A stretch of DNA of 38,005 bases, taken from positions 1-38,005 of IMG/VR virus record IMGVR_UViG_3300037520_000547. One strand, written 5' to 3'. Position numbers and translations under genes: made by a program. Below, piece after piece: positions 5,625-16,341 of this stretch (positions within the stretch are counted from its first letter, which is position 1; each line of letters starts with the position of its first letter). Below the pieces are notes generated by a model that saw nothing but the letters and a program-made list of their open reading frames with translations, had not been told where the DNA came from and did not search any database. Source of the DNA: a virus.

Positions 5625-6749
5625 ATGGCTGCTCACTCAAACGTCGTCGGCGGTTCGACCGCCAAGCGCGTGCTGGCCTGCCCCGGCAGCGTCGCGCTCG
5701 TCCGCACCATGCCCCCGCAGCCGTCGTCGGTTCACGCCGACACCGGCACGCTGCTGCACAACACCATCGCCACCATCCTGGAGACGGGCAAGGACCCGCA
5801 GGAGTTCCTGGGCGTCACCTACAACGGCATCGAACTGACCGACGACCTGATGGAGCGCAAGTTGCTTCCGGCACTCGCCGCCCTTGACGAGATCGACCCC
5901 GACAAGATGATGGAGTACGCCGTCGAGCAGGTCGTCGGCTTCGGCGCCGCCCTGCCGGGCGTGTTCGGGTCCGCCGACGTCGTGGGCCGGATGGGCAAGC
6001 GCGGCATCCTGCTGGATTGGAAGTTCGGCGACGGCGTCGCGGTGGACGCGGAAGAGAACCCGCAGGGGCTGTTCTACGTTGCCGCAGCGCTCCGTACCGA
6101 GAAGACCGCATGGGCCTTCAAGGACGTCGAGGACATCGAGATCATCATCGTCCAGCCGCCCTACGTGAAGCGCTGGGTGACAACGCCCGCCCGCGTCAAG
6201 CAGTTCGAGGCCGACCTGATGCTGGCGGTGCGCGCTGCCGAGCAGCCCGACGCGCCACTGGCAGCCGGCGACCACTGCCGCTGGTGTACGGCCAAGACGA
6301 TCTGCCCGGTGGTCAGCGGTGCAGTCGCCCGCGCCACCCGCACGGCACTCAAGACGGTCAACGTGGACCGCCTGGCCGAGGCGCTGGGGCAGATCGACCT
6401 GCTGGTGGGCTACATCAAGGACGCCCGCGACATGGCGCAGCAACTGCTGGAAGCAGGCGTCGAGGTGCCGGGCTGGAAGCTGGTGCCCAAGCGCGCCACC
6501 CGCAAGTGGGTAGACGACAAAAAAGTCTTGACGACCCTGACCGAAGCAGGGCTTAATATCGAACAATTGACGGACCCCAAGTCCCCCGCGCAGATGGAGA
6601 AGGTGTTGAAGAAGCACAATGTCCCGCTGCCGTCTGACCTGATCGTGTCCGTCTCAACAGGTAGCACGTTGGCACCCGAGGATGATCCTCGCCCAGCGTC
6701 GTTACAAGTAGGTCGTCATCTGACGGCTGCTTTAGGTAAACTAGTCTAG
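5625..6749 (+). CDS. DUF2800 family RecB/Cas4-like nuclease
   Basis: The product has 374 residues. The PD-(D/E)XK core is visible as GSADVV (D118) and LLDWKFG (D131, K133). C19 with C218, C221 and C227 (in HCRWCTAKTIC) matches the four-cysteine iron-sulphur cluster of Cas4/AddB-type nucleases. The family occurs in phage replication modules and probably processes DNA ends. It is the first gene after the divergent promoter; the next gene starts 13 bases on. The last 70 or so codons use more A/T-ending codons than the rest. Confidence 0.88.
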   Translation: MAAHSNVVGGSTAKRVLACPGSVALVRTMPPQPSSVHADTGTLLHNTIATILETGKDPQEFLGVTYNGIELTDDLMERKLLPALAALDEIDPDKMMEYAVEQVVGFGAALPGVFGSADVVGRMGKRGILLDWKFGDGVAVDAEENPQGLFYVAAALRTEKTAWAFKDVEDIEIIIVQPPYVKRWVTTPARVKQFEADLMLAVRAAEQPDAPLAAGDHCRWCTAKTICPVVSGAVARATRTALKTVNVDRLAEALGQIDLLVGYIKDARDMAQQLLEAGVEVPGWKLVPKRATRKWVDDKKVLTTLTEAGLNIEQLTDPKSPAQMEKVLKKHNVPLPSDLIVSVSTGSTLAPEDDPRPASLQVGRHLTAALGKLV

Positions 6750-6762
6750 AAAGGACAGTACA

Positions 6763-7398
6763 ATGAACGACGTAGTATCTTTCGGCAACGGCAACCTCCC
6801 CTCCGTCCAGTCCCTGACCACTGCCCTGCGCAGCCTCGAAAGCGAGGTCGGCGCTGCCGGCATGGTCATCCTCAAGATGGACAAGACCGGCCATTGGGTG
6901 TTCGGTGCCGACCAGACCGAAATCGACGACGACAGCACTTGGGCGATCAACCCGTTCTCCTTTGTCCACGGCTTTATTGCCTGGGGCGAAGGCGAGGTGC
7001 TGGGCGAGAAGATGGTGCCGGTGTCGGACCCGCTTCCCGAAATGGATAACCCGCCGCCGGGCGCCAAGCGCGGCTGGGAGATGCAGGTCGGCATGAGCCT
7101 CAAGTGCATGAACGGCGACGACAAGGGCATGGAGGCGCGCTACAACGTCACCTCCGTGGGCGGCAAGCGCGCCGTTCAGAAGCTGGCTCTTGAGATTGCC
7201 GCGCAGGTCGAGAAGGACCAGACCAAGCCTGTGCCGGTGGTGCGCCTGAAGAAGGAACATTACATGCACAAGTCCTACGGTCGCATCTTCACGCCTGTCT
7301 TCGAGATCAGCAATTGGATTGATCTGGAAGGCAAGACGGATGCGCCCGCCGCTGAACCGACGCCGGAAGCCACCGTCCGTCGTCGTCGTACTGCGTAA
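6763..7398 (+). CDS. probable ssDNA-binding/replication accessory protein
   Basis: The product has 211 residues, with AAAGGA ahead of ATG 6763. It has no enzyme motif. The central part (GHWVFGADQTE, WAINPFSFVHGFIAWGEGEV, LGEKMV) resembles a phage family found between DUF2800 nucleases and family A polymerases. In related modules that slot holds DUF2815-type OB-fold ssDNA-binding proteins. The C-terminus is acidic and Pro-rich and ends in RRRRTA. The ssDNA-binding role is inferred mainly from position. Confidence 0.65.
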   Translation: MNDVVSFGNGNLPSVQSLTTALRSLESEVGAAGMVILKMDKTGHWVFGADQTEIDDDSTWAINPFSFVHGFIAWGEGEVLGEKMVPVSDPLPEMDNPPPGAKRGWEMQVGMSLKCMNGDDKGMEARYNVTSVGGKRAVQKLALEIAAQVEKDQTKPVPVVRLKKEHYMHKSYGRIFTPVFEISNWIDLEGKTDAPAAEPTPEATVRRRRTA

Positions 7399-7406
7399 GC
7401 GGGCGC

Positions 7407-7444
7407 GCGGGGCCGCTATTTCCTCCCTGGTTGGGCGGCCCCGC
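7407..7444 (+). promoter_or_regulatory. perfect 10-bp hairpin just before the DNA polymerase start
   Basis: GCGGGGCCGC (7407-7416) pairs perfectly with GCGGCCCCGC (7435-7444). It ends four bases before ATG 7449 and has no T tract, so it is a poor terminator. It may limit translation of, or transcription into, the polymerase gene. No clear Shine-Dalgarno lies between the hairpin and the start. Confidence 0.6.
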
Positions 7445-7448
7445 ACCT

Positions 7449-9404
7449 ATGATCATGATATTATATATTGATCTAGAAACCCGCAGCCGTTGCGACCTGC
7501 CGGGGCGCGGCGTCTACAACTACGTGCAAGACCCCAGCACGGAGGTGCTGTGCATGTCCTACGCCTTCAACGATGAGGACGTGCAGACGTGGCGGCCAAG
7601 TGAGCCCTTCCCGACGCGCGTCGCGCTGCACCGGGGGCAGATCCGCGCCCACAACGCGGCGTTTGAACGCCTGATGTTCTGGTACGTCATCTGTCCCGAC
7701 TTCGGCGTACCGGAACCCGCGCTGGAGCAGTTCTACTGCACCGCAACACAAGCCCGCGCCAACTGCGCGCCGGGCAGCCTTGAGGACGTGGGCCGCTTCG
7801 CGGGTGCTGGCATGCGCAAGGACCACCGGGGCGCACAATTGATCCGCCTGCTGTCGATCCCGCAAAGCGACGGCACCTTCCGCGACGACCCCACGCTGAT
7901 GGCCGAGATGGTGGCCTACTGCGAAATGGATGTCAAAGCCATGCGCGCTGTCTCCAAGGCGCTGCGCGAGCTGTCCGACGAGGAACTGTCCGACTACCAC
8001 ATCAACGAGCGCATCAACGACCGGGGCGTGCGCCTGGACGTGCCGCTCGCCAAGGCCGCCGTGCGCTACGCGGCACAGGAACTGGACGACATCCAGCAAG
8101 TGGTGCAGGATGTGACCGGCGGCGTGCTGACGTCGGTGCGCAGCCCCCGGATGCGGGAGTGGGTGCAGGAGCGCGTCGGGCCGGAAGCTCGCAAGCTGAT
8201 GCAAGTATGGAAGGACGGCGTCGAGAAGACCAGCATCGACAAGACCGTGCGCGCTAACCTGCTGGCGATGGAGAACCCCGATGAAGTCCCTGCGGAAGTC
8301 GCGGAAGTGGTGCAGTGCGCGGACGATCTGTGGGCATCGTCCGTGGCGAAGTTTAGCCGTGCCGCAGCGCTTAGCGATGATCAAGACAGTCGCGTCCGGG
8401 GTGCGTTTGTATTCTGTGGTGGCTCAGCTACAGGCCGAGCGTCAAGCTATGGTCTTCAGGTCCACAATTTCCCAAGACGATGTGCCGACGAACCTGAATT
8501 AGTCCGCCAGGCACTGGTGCGCGGGCACGACGTCGTGCCGCAGTATGGCCGCCGCGTCACCGACGTCCTGAAGGGCATGCTGCGGCCCGCGCTGATCCCG
8601 GCACCCGGCAAGTCGTTTGTGGTCGCCGATTGGTCATCCATCGAGGCCCGCGTCACCCCGTGGTGCAGCGGCGAGGCGGGCGAGGACAAGCTGTCACTTT
8701 TTCGTGATGGTGCCGACGTCTACAAGGTCAACGCGGCCGCCACCTTCCGGTGCCGCGTCGAGGACGTCACCAAGGACCAGCGCCAGGTCGGCAAGGTGCA
8801 GGAACTGGCCTGCGGCTTTGCCGGCGGTGTGGGGGCCTTTGCGGCGATGGGCCGCGTCTACGGCCTGAGCCTGCCTGAGAGCGAGGCCCGCAAGATGGTG
8901 GACGCTTGGCGCCGCGCCAATCCGTGGTCGGTGCCTTACTGGCAGGATCTGGAGATTGCGTACACACACGCAATTCGGAACCCGAAGACAAAGATACAGG
9001 CGGGTCGCGTATCGTATTACTACGATGGGCTCCACTTGTGGTACGCCTTGCCGTCGGGCCGTGTTCTTTGTTATCCTTATGCACGGATCGAAGAGGAGGG
9101 CGTCACGTATGCGAAGGCGTCATGGAAACCCGCCGCAGACGCCAAGGAGTGGCCGAGAGCTAGGCTGTGGAAGGGCCTTGCATGCGAGAACATCACGCAA
9201 GCCACCGCTGCGGACATCCTCCGCCATGCTTTACGCGAGATACCGGATGTGGTTTTGCACATCCACGACGAGGTTGTAGTTGAGACAGACCAGCCCGACG
9301 CCGCGCTCGAACACATGCAGCGCGTCATGAGCACACCGCCCGCATGGGCCGCCGGTCTACCACTGGCCGCCGAGGCGTCGGTGATGGCCCGTTATGGCAA
9401 GTAA
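7449..9404 (+). CDS. family A DNA polymerase with 3'-5' exonuclease
   Basis: The product has 651 residues from ATG 7449; ATG 7455 is also possible, and the TTG at 7431 lies inside a hairpin. Exonuclease motifs: DLE (8-10), HNAAFERL (about 68), YCEMD (157-161). Polymerase motifs: A, ADWSSIEAR with metal-binding D394; B, RQVGKVQELACGF with R445 and K449; C, HIHDE (604-608). There is no 5'-3' exonuclease domain, as in T7-like polymerases. It should be the phage replicase. Codon use shifts towards A/T-ending codons around 8340-8510 and 8940-9290, hinting at mosaic exchange. Confidence 0.95.
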   Translation: MIMILYIDLETRSRCDLPGRGVYNYVQDPSTEVLCMSYAFNDEDVQTWRPSEPFPTRVALHRGQIRAHNAAFERLMFWYVICPDFGVPEPALEQFYCTATQARANCAPGSLEDVGRFAGAGMRKDHRGAQLIRLLSIPQSDGTFRDDPTLMAEMVAYCEMDVKAMRAVSKALRELSDEELSDYHINERINDRGVRLDVPLAKAAVRYAAQELDDIQQVVQDVTGGVLTSVRSPRMREWVQERVGPEARKLMQVWKDGVEKTSIDKTVRANLLAMENPDEVPAEVAEVVQCADDLWASSVAKFSRAAALSDDQDSRVRGAFVFCGGSATGRASSYGLQVHNFPRRCADEPELVRQALVRGHDVVPQYGRRVTDVLKGMLRPALIPAPGKSFVVADWSSIEARVTPWCSGEAGEDKLSLFRDGADVYKVNAAATFRCRVEDVTKDQRQVGKVQELACGFAGGVGAFAAMGRVYGLSLPESEARKMVDAWRRANPWSVPYWQDLEIAYTHAIRNPKTKIQAGRVSYYYDGLHLWYALPSGRVLCYPYARIEEEGVTYAKASWKPAADAKEWPRARLWKGLACENITQATAADILRHALREIPDVVLHIHDEVVVETDQPDAALEHMQRVMSTPPAWAAGLPLAAEASVMARYGK

Positions 9405-12262: not shown

Positions 12263-12411
12263 AGTTCTATCGTCCTTTCTCTGTTGGTTAAGCGTGTTGT
12301 TACTCTGGGAACGGATGGGAGCGGTGGTGGGGCTGGCCGCCGTAGCAGCGTGTAGTAAAGGCAAGCGGTGCCCATGAGGGCGCCGGCGGCGAAGCCTATG
12401 AAGAAGAGCAT
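12259..12411 (-). CDS. 50-residue single-pass membrane protein
   Basis: ATG 12411 has GGCGGAGG directly upstream and overlaps the DnaA-like gene by 16 bases. Residues 2-22 (LFFIGFAAGALMGTACLYYTL) form a membrane helix. A Pro-rich linker (RRPAPPPLPSVP) and a basic end follow. There is no lipobox. The function is unknown; the strong ribosome site and overlaps make it likely real. Confidence 0.6.
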   Translation of the reverse strand: MLFFIGFAAGALMGTACLYYTLLRRPAPPPLPSVPRVTTRLTNRERTIEL

Positions 12412-12776
12412 GCGTCCTCCGCCAGGATGGCCTCGACGCGGGCGCGTTCGGCGGTGTAGCGGCCCTGCGCCACCATCGCGCAGAACGTCGTATAGCTGTG
12501 GTGCGCGGTCGTGTGGTCCGTCCGGTTCAGGTGCGCCGCGATCTGGCTTAGGCCCAGGTCCTGCCTGCGTCGGCGTAGTTCCCAAGCCGCATGGTGGCGC
12601 GCGTGGCAGTAGCGGCGCGGGCGTCGGATGCTGTGCAGCTCGTCGACCGTCAATTCGTGGGCCTCTGCCACGGCGGCCACGATCCGCTTGGCCGGGTAGC
12701 GGCGGCGCTGCTCCGCCATGTGGGCTTGGTGCGCCTGCCAGAGCCGGGCAACGTCCTCTTTAAATTTACTTTCCAT
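12396..12776 (-). CDS. DnaA domain IV-like DNA-binding protein
   Basis: The product has 126 residues and starts at ATG 12776. Residues 32-97 match the C-terminal helix-turn-helix domain of the bacterial initiator DnaA: a lead helix IVAAVAEAHELTVDEL, a basic loop RRPRRYCHARHHAAWELRR, then LSQIAAHLNRTDHTTAHHS. The TDHTT at 86-90 corresponds to the DnaA signature RDHTT. There is no AAA+ domain. Such truncated proteins occur in phages and may bind DnaA boxes, either at a phage origin or as regulators. A perfect DnaA box lies upstream at 15184-15192 in the promoter of this same operon. Confidence 0.85.
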   Translation of the reverse strand: MESKFKEDVARLWQAHQAHMAEQRRRYPAKRIVAAVAEAHELTVDELHSIRRPRRYCHARHHAAWELRRRRQDLGLSQIAAHLNRTDHTTAHHSYTTFCAMVAQGRYTAERARVEAILAEDACSSS

Positions 12777-13014
12777 CTGTGCCGCTCTCTGTTACAGTTG
12801 CCCCTGTTTTCGTCCCCACAACTAGACTAGGCGGCCCCTTGGGGCCGTCCTTTTCTTTTGGTAGCAGGTTCCGGCGCCGGGCTTCCTGCGCGGCCGCCTC
12901 TAGTGCAATCGCGTGATTGTCCAGGCGGATCTTGACGGCCGCCAGGAACCGCAGCAGGTCGACGTCGTCCAAGCCTGCCACGTTCGCTTGCCAGTGCGCG
13001 CTCAACGGTTCCAT
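12766..13014 (-). CDS. 82-residue hypothetical protein
   Basis: I chose ATG 13014, with GGTGAAGG close upstream; it overlaps the previous gene by 13 bases and the next by 11. The first 50 residues are helical and regular (DVDLLRFLAAVKIRLDNHAI, ALEAAAQEARRRN). The tail is Gly/Thr/Lys-rich and disordered. No family is recognised. The DNA for the tail also contains a terminator-like hairpin on the opposite strand. Confidence 0.6.
   Translation of the reverse strand: MEPLSAHWQANVAGLDDVDLLRFLAAVKIRLDNHAIALEAAAQEARRRNLLPKEKDGPKGPPSLVVGTKTGATVTESGTDGK
12832..12859 (+). terminator. intrinsic terminator-like hairpin on the plus strand, inside a minus-strand gene
   Basis: CGGCCC (12832-12837) and GGGCCG (12842-12847) pair around a four-base loop. 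TCCTTTTCTTTT follows at 12848-12859. It points against the minus operon, where it could stop transcripts reading through from the primase gene. It also lies in the coding sequence of the 82-residue protein. Confidence 0.5.
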
Positions 13015-13265
13015 TCCTTCACCACGCCGTTGAGTTGTTCTGCGATGCCCTGCCACTCGTCGCGCGCGTCTAGCGCCTCGTCCAGGTCAACCTGCAAGCC
13101 CGCGTTGGTCTGGTGCAGCTGCTCACACATCTCGTCTGTATCTCTCAATTGTACCGCCAGCGCTTCCACAAGGGCGATGGACAGCACGCCCACCTTGGCG
13201 CAATCGAGCGCATGCCGGACGAGTTCCGCCGGGGGCATGTTCATCATGTCGGTATAATCGCGCAT
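13002..13265 (-). CDS. 87-residue hypothetical helical protein
   Basis: ATG 13265 lies behind GGAGG and overlaps the upstream gene's stop (TAATG). The product is helical, with acidic repeats in its second half (LQVDLDEALDARDEWQGIAE). It resembles other small phage coiled-coil proteins, but I know no function. The longer frame that continues upstream is antisense-like read-through and not used. Confidence 0.6.
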   Translation of the reverse strand: MRDYTDMMNMPPAELVRHALDCAKVGVLSIALVEALAVQLRDTDEMCEQLHQTNAGLQVDLDEALDARDEWQGIAEQLNGVVKEWNR

Positions 13266-13567
13266 TAGTAAGCCTCCGCGTAGCGGTCGACAATGCCGTC
13301 GTCGGCCAGCATATCGGTTAACCGTTCCTGGAGCCATTCGCGGTCTAGATCGGCGTAAAGGACATGGAACAGCGGCATATGGCGGCCGATTTTGGTATAG
13401 ATTGGCTTGCCGTCTTTCTTGCCGGTGAAATGAAATTCGGTCACGTCCCAATCAATTACGCCGCTCCGACCGTCGGGCAAATAGTACTCGATCCGGCACT
13501 CGCAATCGGTCTCGAACAAGCAGACGTCGTCCTTCCAGACGGAAATGGTCGTTTCAATGTAAAGCAT
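13265..13567 (-). CDS. 100-residue hypothetical protein
   Basis: A strong AGGAGG lies ahead of ATG 13567. The first half is rich in beta-prone and aromatic residues (LYIETTISVW, ECRIEYYLPDGRSGVIDW), and the second is helical (EWLQERLTDMLAD). It looks like a small folded cytosolic protein with no motif I recognise. It is coupled to the next gene by TAATG. Confidence 0.65.
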   Translation of the reverse strand: MLYIETTISVWKDDVCLFETDCECRIEYYLPDGRSGVIDWDVTEFHFTGKKDGKPIYTKIGRHMPLFHVLYADLDREWLQERLTDMLADDGIVDRYAEAY

Positions 13568-13671: not shown

Positions 13672-14034
13672 TCACACCGCCTGCAACACAGTGAAGCCGG
13701 CGCCCGTCAAGGCGGTGTTCCAATCCAAACCGCCGTCGGCGCGCATGACGTCGACAAACTTGCCGTAGACGTCGGCGGCCGCGTCATAGCCTGCCGGCAG
13801 GTGTTCCGGCAGCTTGCGGGCGGCGCTGGCGCACGCGGCGGAGCGCTTGTCATAACCACCGCCGCCGGCAAAGCCTCGCACCATAGGCACGCCCAGCCAA
13901 TGCACATAGCTATAGAGGCGGCCGGCGCCGTCGCGCGGATACTTGATGGCCACGGTGGCGACGCGCTCGCCGGCGTGCATAACGACGTAGGCGGAGACGT
14001 TCGAGAAGGCGGCGCGGTGTTGATCATAGATCAT
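13672..14034 (-). CDS. 120-residue conserved phage hypothetical protein
   Basis: This is the first gene after the palindromic-spacer promoter at 14070-14098. It starts at ATG 14034. The protein mixes strands and helices: FSNVSAYVVMHAGERVATVA, YVHWLGVPMVRGFAGGGGYDKRSAA. I recall similar proteins (YDKRSAACA, HWLGVPMVRG) in phages and plasmids, without a known function. The internal promoter could let this and the following genes be made separately from the clamp-like gene. Confidence 0.7.
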   Translation of the reverse strand: MIYDQHRAAFSNVSAYVVMHAGERVATVAIKYPRDGAGRLYSYVHWLGVPMVRGFAGGGGYDKRSAACASAARKLPEHLPAGYDAAADVYGKFVDVMRADGGLDWNTALTGAGFTVLQAV

Positions 14035-14069
14035 TGGATTGTTTCCCCTAGTTGCTTGTTAGTGTGGAA

Positions 14070-14098
14070 AGTATAGGGGGCATTATGCCCCCTGTCAA
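14070..14098 (-). promoter_or_regulatory. strong internal promoter with a palindromic spacer
   Basis: On the minus strand TTGACA (14098-14093), exactly 17 bases, then TATACT (14075-14070). The whole spacer (14076-14092, GGGGGCATAATGCCCCC on the minus strand) is a perfect 8-bp inverted repeat about one central base. A dimeric regulator bound there would block RNA polymerase. It drives the 13672-14034 gene and those beyond. Confidence 0.8.
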
Positions 14099-14106
14099 GA
14101 ATTGTT

Positions 14107-14670
14107 TTAGGCAATCGCGCGGGCGACATTCCAAGGTGTTGCTTCCTTGACTGTGCGCATGGGCATGATGACTGCGAAGCAATCTTCACGGCCGGCAAAC
14201 GTCACGCCATGCGGGCTTGTGTTGTCCCAAGCATGGATGCGGAAGGTAACGCCGGTCTTAGAACCAAGCGCGCGCGACATTTGGCCGAGATCATAGATGT
14301 AATCGGGGTTAAAATGCGCCGGTGTTTGATCCTCGCCAGGCTTGAAGCCGTCCATGGGCGGGATGACTGCTTTCCAATTCGGAAACGTGCCGTCTACCGG
14401 CGTGAACACAATGCCGCCCAATGTGTTGCCGTTTAGCTCGAGCGTTTCGGCGCGCTTTGGTGCCAGTTTGAGCGCGGCCTTGACCGTCTCGAGGGGGATA
14501 ATGATATCCGCCGGCACGGCTTCGGTCAGCTTGGCACAAAAGAGCCGGTGCCCGTCCGTCGTGACCATATGGCCTGACGTGCTGAGATGCACGCCTTTGA
14601 GGTAGTAACGCGTTTCCTCAGTTGAGGCACAAAGCAGGGCGGCCTTGAGAAGATCGGTCGGAATAAGCAT
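14107..14670 (-). CDS. sliding-clamp-like protein (DNA polymerase III beta-related), short form
   Basis: The product has 187 residues from ATG 14670. Residues 20-43 (TRYYLKGVHLSTSGHMVTTDGHRL) match the core of the beta-clamp C-terminal domain, in which R-Y-x-L-x-G-V is followed by TDGHRL. A bacterial beta clamp has three domains and about 366 residues, so this covers roughly one and a half. It might form a ring from more subunits, or bind and modulate the host clamp or polymerase. Its presence beside a family A polymerase is notable. A hairpin at 14718-14738 separates it from the preceding gene. Confidence 0.75.
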   Translation of the reverse strand: MLIPTDLLKAALLCASTEETRYYLKGVHLSTSGHMVTTDGHRLFCAKLTEAVPADIIIPLETVKAALKLAPKRAETLELNGNTLGGIVFTPVDGTFPNWKAVIPPMDGFKPGEDQTPAHFNPDYIYDLGQMSRALGSKTGVTFRIHAWDNTSPHGVTFAGREDCFAVIMPMRTVKEATPWNVARAIA

Positions 14671-14742: not shown

Positions 14743-14991
14743 CTAGATCCTAACGATACCCTTTAGGCCATAGTGCGCGGTATACTCCACGCGCCACTCA
14801 TTGCCGCCGGCCGTCCAAACGCGGATGACATTGCCGCGGGATTTTTTGGCGCGGATCGGCGCGCTGGTGCCGCGCTTGGCGAAATCGGCGCCGGCCAGGA
14901 AGGCGAGCCAAGCGTCGCTCGACCACAAGTAAGGGTTATCGATATCCGGTTCGCTGGCATTGTATCCCTCGATAAATTCGGTGGTGAGCAT
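14743..14991 (-). CDS. 82-residue protein with an Rmf/CrpP-like N-terminus
   Basis: ATG 14991 has GAGGAGAAACG upstream. Residues 8-40 (EGYNASEPDIDNPYLWS, AWLAFLAGADFAKRG) match the short pattern of ribosome modulation factor-like proteins: a G-Y-x-A turn, N/C-P-Y, then an aromatic AWxxFLAG helix. The C-terminal half is basic with beta-strand character. Rmf silences ribosomes, and phage relatives are common but mostly unproven. The match is short, so the assignment is tentative. Confidence 0.6.
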   Translation of the reverse strand: MLTTEFIEGYNASEPDIDNPYLWSSDAWLAFLAGADFAKRGTSAPIRAKKSRGNVIRVWTAGGNEWRVEYTAHYGLKGIVRI

Positions 14992-15003: not shown

Positions 15004-15156
15004 TCAGCGGGGGTTGATTATGTTGTTCTTGGCGAACACTTGGACCTTGCCGACAAACGGCTTGCGCCCCTTGATAACGCGGCACACGAGAGCATGGCCA
15101 ATGTCCTCGAGGATTTCGACGCTGAAGGTCTGGCCGGCGCGGGTATCGAATGTCAT
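15004..15156 (-). CDS. 50-residue hypothetical protein, first gene of the minus operon
   Basis: ATG 15156 lies behind AAAGAGGAAAA, 35 bases after the -10 box of its promoter. The product is basic and beta-prone (FSVEILEDIGHALVCRVIKG, VGKVQVFAKN). No family is recognised. Its leader (GAGGAAAACGACA) closely matches that of the next gene (GAGGAGAAACGACA), which suggests similar translation. Confidence 0.6.
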   Translation of the reverse strand: MTFDTRAGQTFSVEILEDIGHALVCRVIKGRKPFVGKVQVFAKNNIINPR

Positions 15157-15183: not shown

Positions 15184-15192
15184 TGTGGATAA
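15184..15192 (-). promoter_or_regulatory. perfect DnaA box
   Basis: The minus strand reads TTATCCACA, the consensus DnaA box. It overlaps the -10 hexamer (15191-15196) of the early minus promoter. Because a DnaA-like protein is encoded in this operon, the box may serve autoregulation or initiation. Only one perfect copy was noticed. Confidence 0.65.
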
Positions 15193-15219
15193 CCTAACAG
15201 GCATCCGGAAGCTTGTCAA
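15191..15219 (-). promoter_or_regulatory. promoter of the early minus-strand operon
   Basis: TTGACA (15219-15214), a 17-base spacer, then TAGGTT (15196-15191) on the minus strand. An AATTGT stretch precedes the -35, as at other promoters here. It drives 15004-15156 and the overlapping genes down to 11909. Confidence 0.65.
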
Positions 15220-15252: not shown

Positions 15253-15281
15253 TTGCAGCCATTCCGCGCTTGTGTTATGTT
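15253..15281 (+). promoter_or_regulatory. plus-strand promoter, divergent from the early operon
   Basis: TTGCAG (15253-15258), 17 bases, then TATGTT (15276-15281). It lies 28 bases ahead of ATG 15310, which has AAAGGAAA as ribosome site. The two divergent promoters leave 33 bases between their -35 boxes. Confidence 0.55.
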
Positions 15282-15309
15282 TTCCCCATAACGAAAGGAA
15301 ACGTGAACA

Positions 15310-15432
15310 ATGCACCCCAATATGAAAAAGCTGCTAGGCCTTAACGTCCGCCCGGTATTTCATGTCCAGACCTGGCCGACGCCGGTAGATATCCCGTACG
15401 TTCCCGCAACACCTAAGAAGGAAGGCAAGTAA
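15310..15432 (+). CDS. 40-residue hypothetical protein
   Basis: ATG 15310 has AAAGGAAA upstream. The product starts MHPNMKKLLGLNVRP and continues with a Pro-rich run (WPTPVDIPYVPATP). It is basic at both ends. The next gene starts two bases after its stop, so the pair form a small operon ending at the terminator at 15722-15753. No family recognised. Confidence 0.6.
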   Translation: MHPNMKKLLGLNVRPVFHVQTWPTPVDIPYVPATPKKEGK

Positions 15433-15721: not shown

Positions 15722-15753
15722 AACCCCGCCCTAACACGGCGGGGTTCTTTTTT
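15722..15753 (+). terminator. intrinsic terminator
   Basis: AACCCCGCC (15722-15730) and GGCGGGGTT (15738-15746) pair perfectly around a seven-base loop, followed by CTTTTTT. It closes the 15310-15679 operon on the plus strand. Confidence 0.85.
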
Positions 15754-16046
15754 GGGTAGCTGTGGGGTACTGCGTGGGGTTATGTCGGAGAGGGCTAAAA
15801 GCTATACGCCATCGGCTTATGGGTAATATGGGTAGTCATTCTAGTTAAAAGGATGGATTGGTGTATATTAGTAAATGCTAATGTATAGCTGTATAGAAAT
15901 CTAACGATTAACGAGCCTAAGTCTTTCCGTGGGGCATTGCCCATTTTGCCCATATTGCCCCACGCCCCTGCCCCCACGCCGATTGCCCTTGCATTCCGTA
16001 CCAAATAGCGTTATGTGATATCTATCGCTTTTTACGGAGATAACCA
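15754..16046. other. non-coding control region with 9-nt periodic repeats; candidate origin
   Basis: No convincing gene fills this stretch. Copies of (T/C)TGCCCAT repeat every nine bases at 15937-15963 and again at 16056-16073. Two copies of ATGGGTA, also nine bases apart, lie near 15820-15836 in the opposite sense. The 15929-15963 array is framed by an 8-bp inverted repeat (GTGGGGCA/TGCCCCAC). An AT-rich stretch (about 15835-15910) lies between the repeat groups. Spaced iterons beside AT-rich DNA are typical of replication origins or multi-site operators; which one applies here is unknown. Confidence 0.5.
15989..16017 (+). promoter_or_regulatory. possible promoter for the 89-residue gene
   Basis: TTGCAT (15989-15994), 17 bases, then TATGTG (16012-16017), 29 bases ahead of ATG 16047. 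Both hexamers are imperfect. Confidence 0.4.
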
Positions 16047-16316
16047 ATGCAGAAACTGCCCATATTGCCCATGGCCCATGTTGATGACCCGGCCGCAATC
16101 CGCGCCTGGGCCGTTGACGCTATCACGCAAAAGCAAATCACGCGGCGCCAATTCTCTGGCATTGTGCTGTTAGCTTCCCGTCACGTCCCGTGCTCCGTTG
16201 AGTTGCGCCAGCGCTCGCCTAAGAGCGTGCTGTATCTCTGGATCAATGGTCAGCTCGAGTATCGCATCGGCCAGCGTGCGGAGTTGTTCGGCGGCTATCC
16301 GCAACAAATTGTTTGA
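16047..16316 (+). CDS. 89-residue hypothetical protein
   Basis: ATG 16047 has ACGGAGAT upstream. The product has a helical core (PAAIRAWAVDAITQKQITRRQ, then FSGIVLLASRH) and a basic, beta-like end (SVLYLWINGQLEYRIGQRAE). Its first codons overlap the second group of nine-base TGCCCAT repeats, so start-region residues LPILPM are set by the repeat. No family is recognised. The next promoter overlaps its stop codon. Confidence 0.55.
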   Translation: MQKLPILPMAHVDDPAAIRAWAVDAITQKQITRRQFSGIVLLASRHVPCSVELRQRSPKSVLYLWINGQLEYRIGQRAELFGGYPQQIV

Positions 16317-16341
16317 CAGTCCCCTAGCCATGTGCTAGTGT
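16313..16341 (+). promoter_or_regulatory. promoter upstream of the late/packaging region
   Basis: TTGACA (16313-16318), 17 bases, then TAGTGT (16336-16341). Its -35 overlaps the end of the 89-residue gene, and AACAAATTG precedes it as at the 15219 promoter. It could drive the terminase and structural run from 16609. Confidence 0.65.

Follow-up and report, generated by a model that had tools for sequence, protein, structure and literature searches.

The stretch of viral DNA analysed here (the window; 38,005 nucleotides, IMG/VR record IMGVR_UViG_3300037520_000547) contains on its minus strand a promoter, P_L1 (TTGACA-N17-TAGGTT, 15191..15219), that faces a leftward early operon. Its hexamers are exact, with TTGACA at 15219..15214, TAGGTT at 15196..15191 and N17 between them, and the -10/start region is overlapped by the DnaA box TTATCCACA (15184..15192, minus strand), with which the -10 shares its last two bases. 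By sequence this site is a DnaA box, matching TTWTNCACA at 9/9 positions, and it is the sole perfect copy of TTATCCACA within the 38 kb. A perfect minus-strand box over the -10 of precisely this promoter had been proposed in a sequence-only reading, and box, coordinates and hexamers are all confirmed. The leftward genes that P_L1 faces lie at 15004-15156 (the first gene 3' of the promoter, 50 aa, minus strand), 14743-14991, 14107-14670, 13672-14034, 13265-13567, 12766-13056 and 12396-12776.

The gene at 12396..12776 (minus strand) encodes a 126-aa protein that matches the Bac_DnaA_C model PF08299 (E=6.4e-10, 39.3 bits, curated cut-off 31.5), whereas NCBIfam TIGR00362 matches it at the C-terminal part of the model only (36.9 bits vs. 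a cut-off of 343.9). Domain III, the AAA+ ATPase of a full DnaA initiator, is absent. The AlphaFold (AF2) model of the protein (pLDDT 93.7) found as its two best distinct PDB matches in Foldseek the complexes 3pvp, Mycobacterium tuberculosis DnaA-DBD with its box (target TM 0.83, probability 1.00, E 1.2e-3), and 1j1v, Escherichia coli domain IV with a DnaA box (target TM 0.80, probability 1.00, E 0.04). The phage protein resembles the domains in these complexes in its fold, its helix-turn-helix and its equivalents of R399 and DHT, but differs in standing alone, in having one more helix at the N-terminus and in being only about 22-28% identical in structural alignment. The residues of DnaA that contact bases are those equivalent to E. 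coli 399, 423, 432-435 and 438-439 (PMC5043019). At the positions of the base-reading residues R399, D433, H434 and T435 the window protein, which carries a TDHTT motif, has R, D, H and T, with H88 standing for H434; H439 is also kept, T stands in place of R432 and H in place of L438. The protein is therefore DnaA domain IV alone, a member of Bac_DnaA_C and not a DnaA initiator, and the earlier description of a 126-residue protein with the domain IV fold, TDHTT and no ATPase agrees with PF08299, the C-terminal-only TIGR00362 match and Foldseek alike.

The same operon encodes, upstream of a further promoter (P_L2, see below), a 187-aa sliding-clamp-like (DnaN-related) protein (14107..14670, minus strand; PF02767 E=1.1e-7; TIGR00663 E=8e-11, a partial match; phrog_947); in hosts the corresponding operon arrangement is dnaA-dnaN. 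The top rank for this protein in PHROGs is phrog_3007, labelled RusA-like resolvase, a label that looks mistaken.

Two other promoters in the window have a similar box in the same place. Divergent from P_L1 lies P_R (TTGCAG-N17-TATGTT, 15253..15281, plus strand; kept in relatives), whose first gene, of 40 aa, is at 15310..15432 (plus strand), and at its -10 is a DnaA-like box, TTTTCCCCA (15280..15288, plus strand; TATG-TTTTCCCCA), with 8/9 matches to TTWTNCACA. Within the leftward operon, P_L2 (TTGACA-N17-TATACT, 14070..14098, minus strand), which is followed by a gene of 120 aa (13672..14034, minus strand), likewise has an 8/9 DnaA-like box at its -10, CTTTCCACA (14063..14071, minus strand; TATA-CTTTCCACA), the TCCAC core of which is kept family-wide. 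All three boxes start at base 5 of the -10, so that operator-like sites overlap the -10 of three early promoters, as is expected for targets of a repressor. The spacer of P_L2 (14076-14092, minus strand) is a GC-rich inverted repeat directly 3' of the clamp-like gene, and its arms covary among phages (GGGGGCAT/ATGCCCCC, GGGGACAA/TTGTCCCC, CGGGCGGC/GCCGCCCG and CGGGCAGC/GCTGCCCG); it is a candidate hairpin, terminator or operator. Another promoter, AATTGTTTGACA-N17-TAGTGT (16307-16341, plus strand), which has AATTGTTTGACA in common with P_L1, precedes the terminase genes and carries no box.

Relatives of the 126-aa protein with 68-98% identity are encoded in 19 viral contigs, while tblastn of the searched phage records and a scan of genome contigs returned none. 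We aligned P_L1 in 18 sequences, the window included and L003 left out, and found TTATCCCCA at the place of the box in 15 of them and TTGTCCACA in two (L009 and L010), L003 having the latter as well; TTATCCACA was present in the window only. A pattern scan added one near-identical contig, L029, with the same A as in the window box; it does not differ from the window in its early-operon proteins or promoter box, and its DNA is 96.6% identical over 4.3 kb. In the close relatives position 7 of the box is C rather than A, both at P_L1 and at P_R, and the exact box is not conserved among them. Since TTATCCCCA is found in 15/18 promoters and the A only in the window and L029, what is conserved is a near-box, of which the perfect box is a local variant. 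Thus, where the sequence-only reading looked to related phages to keep the box, they do not keep the perfect 9-mer, but the near-box survives. It also persists where the flanks are dissimilar: L003 and L009 have GATAAC-TTGTCCACA in place of P_L1, plus TAATATCCACA, and a promoter of L015 with different flanks keeps the box TACTTTCCACA.

With a profile search we extended the family to other phages that encode a lone domain-IV protein (L151-L187); representative proteins share 45-64% identity with that of the window. A box with at least 8/9 matches to TTWTNCACA was found at the -10 of 24 of 64 non-redundant promoter-like sites in phages that encode such a protein and at none of 69 in terL relatives without the gene (Fisher p=1.5e-9; reached by 0/2000 local shuffles, mean 0.8), both sets including unvetted promoter-like matches; with stricter clustering the numbers were 14/48 vs. 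0/59 (p=4e-6). In a positional histogram of forward-strand 8/9 matches, 23 of 41 begin precisely at base 5 of the -10. The basal phages L175 and L177 each have the perfect TTATCCACA at two early promoters, and these are the only perfect boxes of their loci; L178, L180, L187 and L152 have one perfect box each in the early control region, and DnaA-type boxes at an early-promoter -10 are also seen in L187 (TTATGCACA) and L178 (TTATTCACA). L151-type phages have no box at P_L1, and several of them show weaker matches only.

For P_L2 we collected 24 distinct sequences, chosen by their -35/-10 hexamers and GC-rich spacer alone, two of which (L018 and L020) resemble a different promoter. Among the 24, positions 4-8 of the box (TCCAC) are conserved and position 3 is random; core positions 4-8, of the TTCAC type, are described as those that matter in DnaA boxes (PMC5043019). 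Compared with the sites in 1j1v and 3pvp, the phage sites are relaxed at position 3 and variable at 7 and 9. On the protein side, the equivalents of R399, D433 and H434 are retained in nearly all family members, while at residue 435 the window clade has T and the remaining members have T, S, A or V. We considered a correlation between residue 435 and position 9 of the P_L2 box (mostly A with T or S, G or C with A or V), but the exceptions L161, L068 and L162 leave it as a lead only. One phage of the family, L178, has two adjacent DnaA_C-type ORFs (6704-7644), with the recognition residues DNHA and VDHT.

In the terL tree the window belongs to a clade of 23 non-redundant phages, all of which encode the domain-IV protein, and most, though not all, have an in-register 8/9 box. 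The other side of the tree holds 20 phages without the gene and three with it (L058, L096 and L120), in none of which did we find a box in the -10 register; in L058 and L120 a leftward early region contains a perfect, reverse-oriented TTWTNCACA, for which a link to the gene is only suggestive. On this tree gene and boxes were gained essentially as one event, so that the contrast between phages with and without the gene does not amount to many independent tests. Given a single gain, the case draws its weight from promoters that have diverged and yet kept their boxes. The tie between the box and the phage's own DnaA-like protein that the sequence-only reading suggested is strengthened by three in-register boxes in the window, by boxes in most of the terL clade and by their absence from gene-less relatives, although it does not hold for the exact 9-mer. 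We also looked at TTGACA-N17-TANNTTATCCNCAT in unrelated contigs as a possible independent origin, and rejected it: the variable base is mixed, which makes these occurrences mostly chance, and L048 is the sole gene-bearing case, with no relatives found. In L048 (6848-6909), an otherwise unrelated contig, TTGACA-N17-TAAGTTATCCCCA stands before an early operon in which an ERF-like gene is found along with one for a DnaA_C protein of 194 aa.

What, then, would a solitary domain IV do in these phages? The explanation that we favour, and judge reasonably likely from the sequence comparisons, is that it serves as a transcription regulator of the early operon, probably an autorepressor, with DnaA boxes as its operators. 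The boxes over the -10 and start of P_L1, P_L2 and P_R would form a set of DnaA-box-type operators, to which the 126-aa protein would most likely bind in monomeric form, by way of the helix-turn-helix and the R399-type loop; bound over the -10 and start point it would block RNA polymerase, and the outcome would be negative control of its own operon, including the clamp-like gene, and of the divergent genes. In support of this are the shared register of the boxes, their conservation in the family, their absence in relatives without the gene and the kept DNA-reading residues, and the predicted structure, which resembles DnaA domain IV/box complexes, is consistent with it. We infer both the binding of the boxes and repression as its effect; the effect could also be activation, or non-transcriptional. 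An autorepressor or early regulator is favoured because the box lies over the -10/start and the operon that carries this mark encodes the protein as well as the clamp-like one, as in the host dnaA-dnaN arrangement. More tentatively, with rather less confidence than we place in the regulator itself, one may suppose that this clade has reused the DNA-reading domain of an initiator as a lone regulator with box operators on the two divergent early promoters and on that of its own gene, and that the predicted overlap in specificity with host DnaA could let early phage transcription also sense the host protein.

Alternatively, it may be host DnaA that reads the boxes and represses or times early transcription, the phage domain IV competing to relieve this or blocking the host oriC. 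The boxes do fit the general consensus, the window, L175 and L177 having the perfect TTATCCACA, and there is precedent in promoters that host DnaA represses through DnaA boxes, such as that of dnaA itself (PMC5835720). We nevertheless consider this unlikely, since the 69 promoter-like sites of gene-less terL relatives lack the box, and since the boxes drift from the consensus in a clade-specific way (C at 7, or G/C at 9). Somewhat less probable again is that TWTCCMCA is an intrinsic promoter feature, a discriminator or initial transcribed sequence spread by promoter copying with no DnaA-type protein involved. Such a feature would account for the fixed register to the -10, the homologous promoters and the asymmetric C-rich stretch between -10 and start, but it is missing where related phages lack the gene (the promoters of L079 and L092 have TACAAT and no box), its offset moves by 1-3 bases in L175, L177, L178 and L164, as a protein site might, and the element matches the known site of a domain that the phage encodes.

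A chance match has very little to recommend it. It is true that TTWTNCACA occurs in the window about as often as expected (2 observed vs. 1.35), so that the perfect 9-mer by itself is not beyond chance, and that a one-base change turns the conserved near-box into a perfect one, but what does exceed chance is the -10 register common to three window promoters and to those of related phages, and at the family level chance is already unlikely. Least probable of all, and rejected, is that an ordinary dimeric repressor of the phage acts on a dyad operator, GTTAT-N4-ATAAC: an GTTATCCCCATAAC-like sequence is present at both divergent promoters, but whereas its CCCC centre hardly changes, its right arm is free to vary (ATAGC, ATCGC, ATCGG, ATCAA, ACAAC).

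The window also has a two-sided array of short repeats (15752-16075; TGGGGTA/ATATGGGTA on the left, ATTGCCCAT on the right) that flanks an AT-rich core of about 90 bp and is located after the terminator of the rightward genes, ahead of a promoter at 16313. Comparable arrays with other units are found in many terL relatives, for instance ATTGTCCAC in L079, AATGACCCA in L092 and palindromes in L058 and L059, and all of these are candidate replication origins. We considered the window array (TGGGGTA/TGCCCAT, with a core like TNCCCAT) as the main target of the 126-aa protein, but phages without the gene have comparable arrays of other sequence, and we therefore do not assign it to the protein. In L008 (2950), L009 (3502) and L003 (445) the AT-rich core contains a perfect TTATCCACA, in the common context CATACTTATCCACATAC; L010, a near-copy of L009, also has TTATCCACA in its core, and the window does not.

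The host dnaA gene is itself autoregulated through a DnaA box in its promoter region (E. coli; reviewed in PMC5835720). Like it, the phages combine a DnaA-type DNA-binding domain with boxes at the promoters of the operon that encodes it, in which a dnaN-like clamp gene is also present, and autorepression is likely. In contrast to host DnaA, the phage protein is domain IV only, and lacking the ATPase it would have no ATP/ADP switch; its boxes are on the -10 of three early promoters, one of them divergent, and the clamp-like protein is short (187 aa). Among phages, DSL-LC05 has at a comparable place an ORF annotated 'repressor protein C', likewise a small putative DNA-binding protein in a leftward early operon, but its early region has palindromic TGACCCACTGGGTCA repeats, unlike the asymmetric DnaA-type boxes of the window. 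Annotated lone DnaA-like phage proteins (UOF77628.1 of MW202483.1, and PHROG 27829, 'DnaA-like replication initiation protein') consist, as the window protein does, of Bac_DnaA_C alone; they are annotated by domain only, with no operators described in the record, and the promoters that we found in MW202483.1 have no in-register box. In the literature that we searched, no phage regulator consisting of domain IV only and having DnaA-box operators on early promoters is described. Autoregulation by host DnaA is thus already known, as are lone DnaA-like proteins of phages, and what is apparently new, as far as the literature searched goes, is the lone domain IV together with matching operators.

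If this interpretation is correct, lone phage DnaA domain-IV proteins could be assigned a role open to testing, that of regulators with defined operators, and a phage switch would have been made from the DNA-binding domain of a replication initiator. A few promoter fragments would then allow a direct test of cross-talk between host DnaA and early phage transcription.
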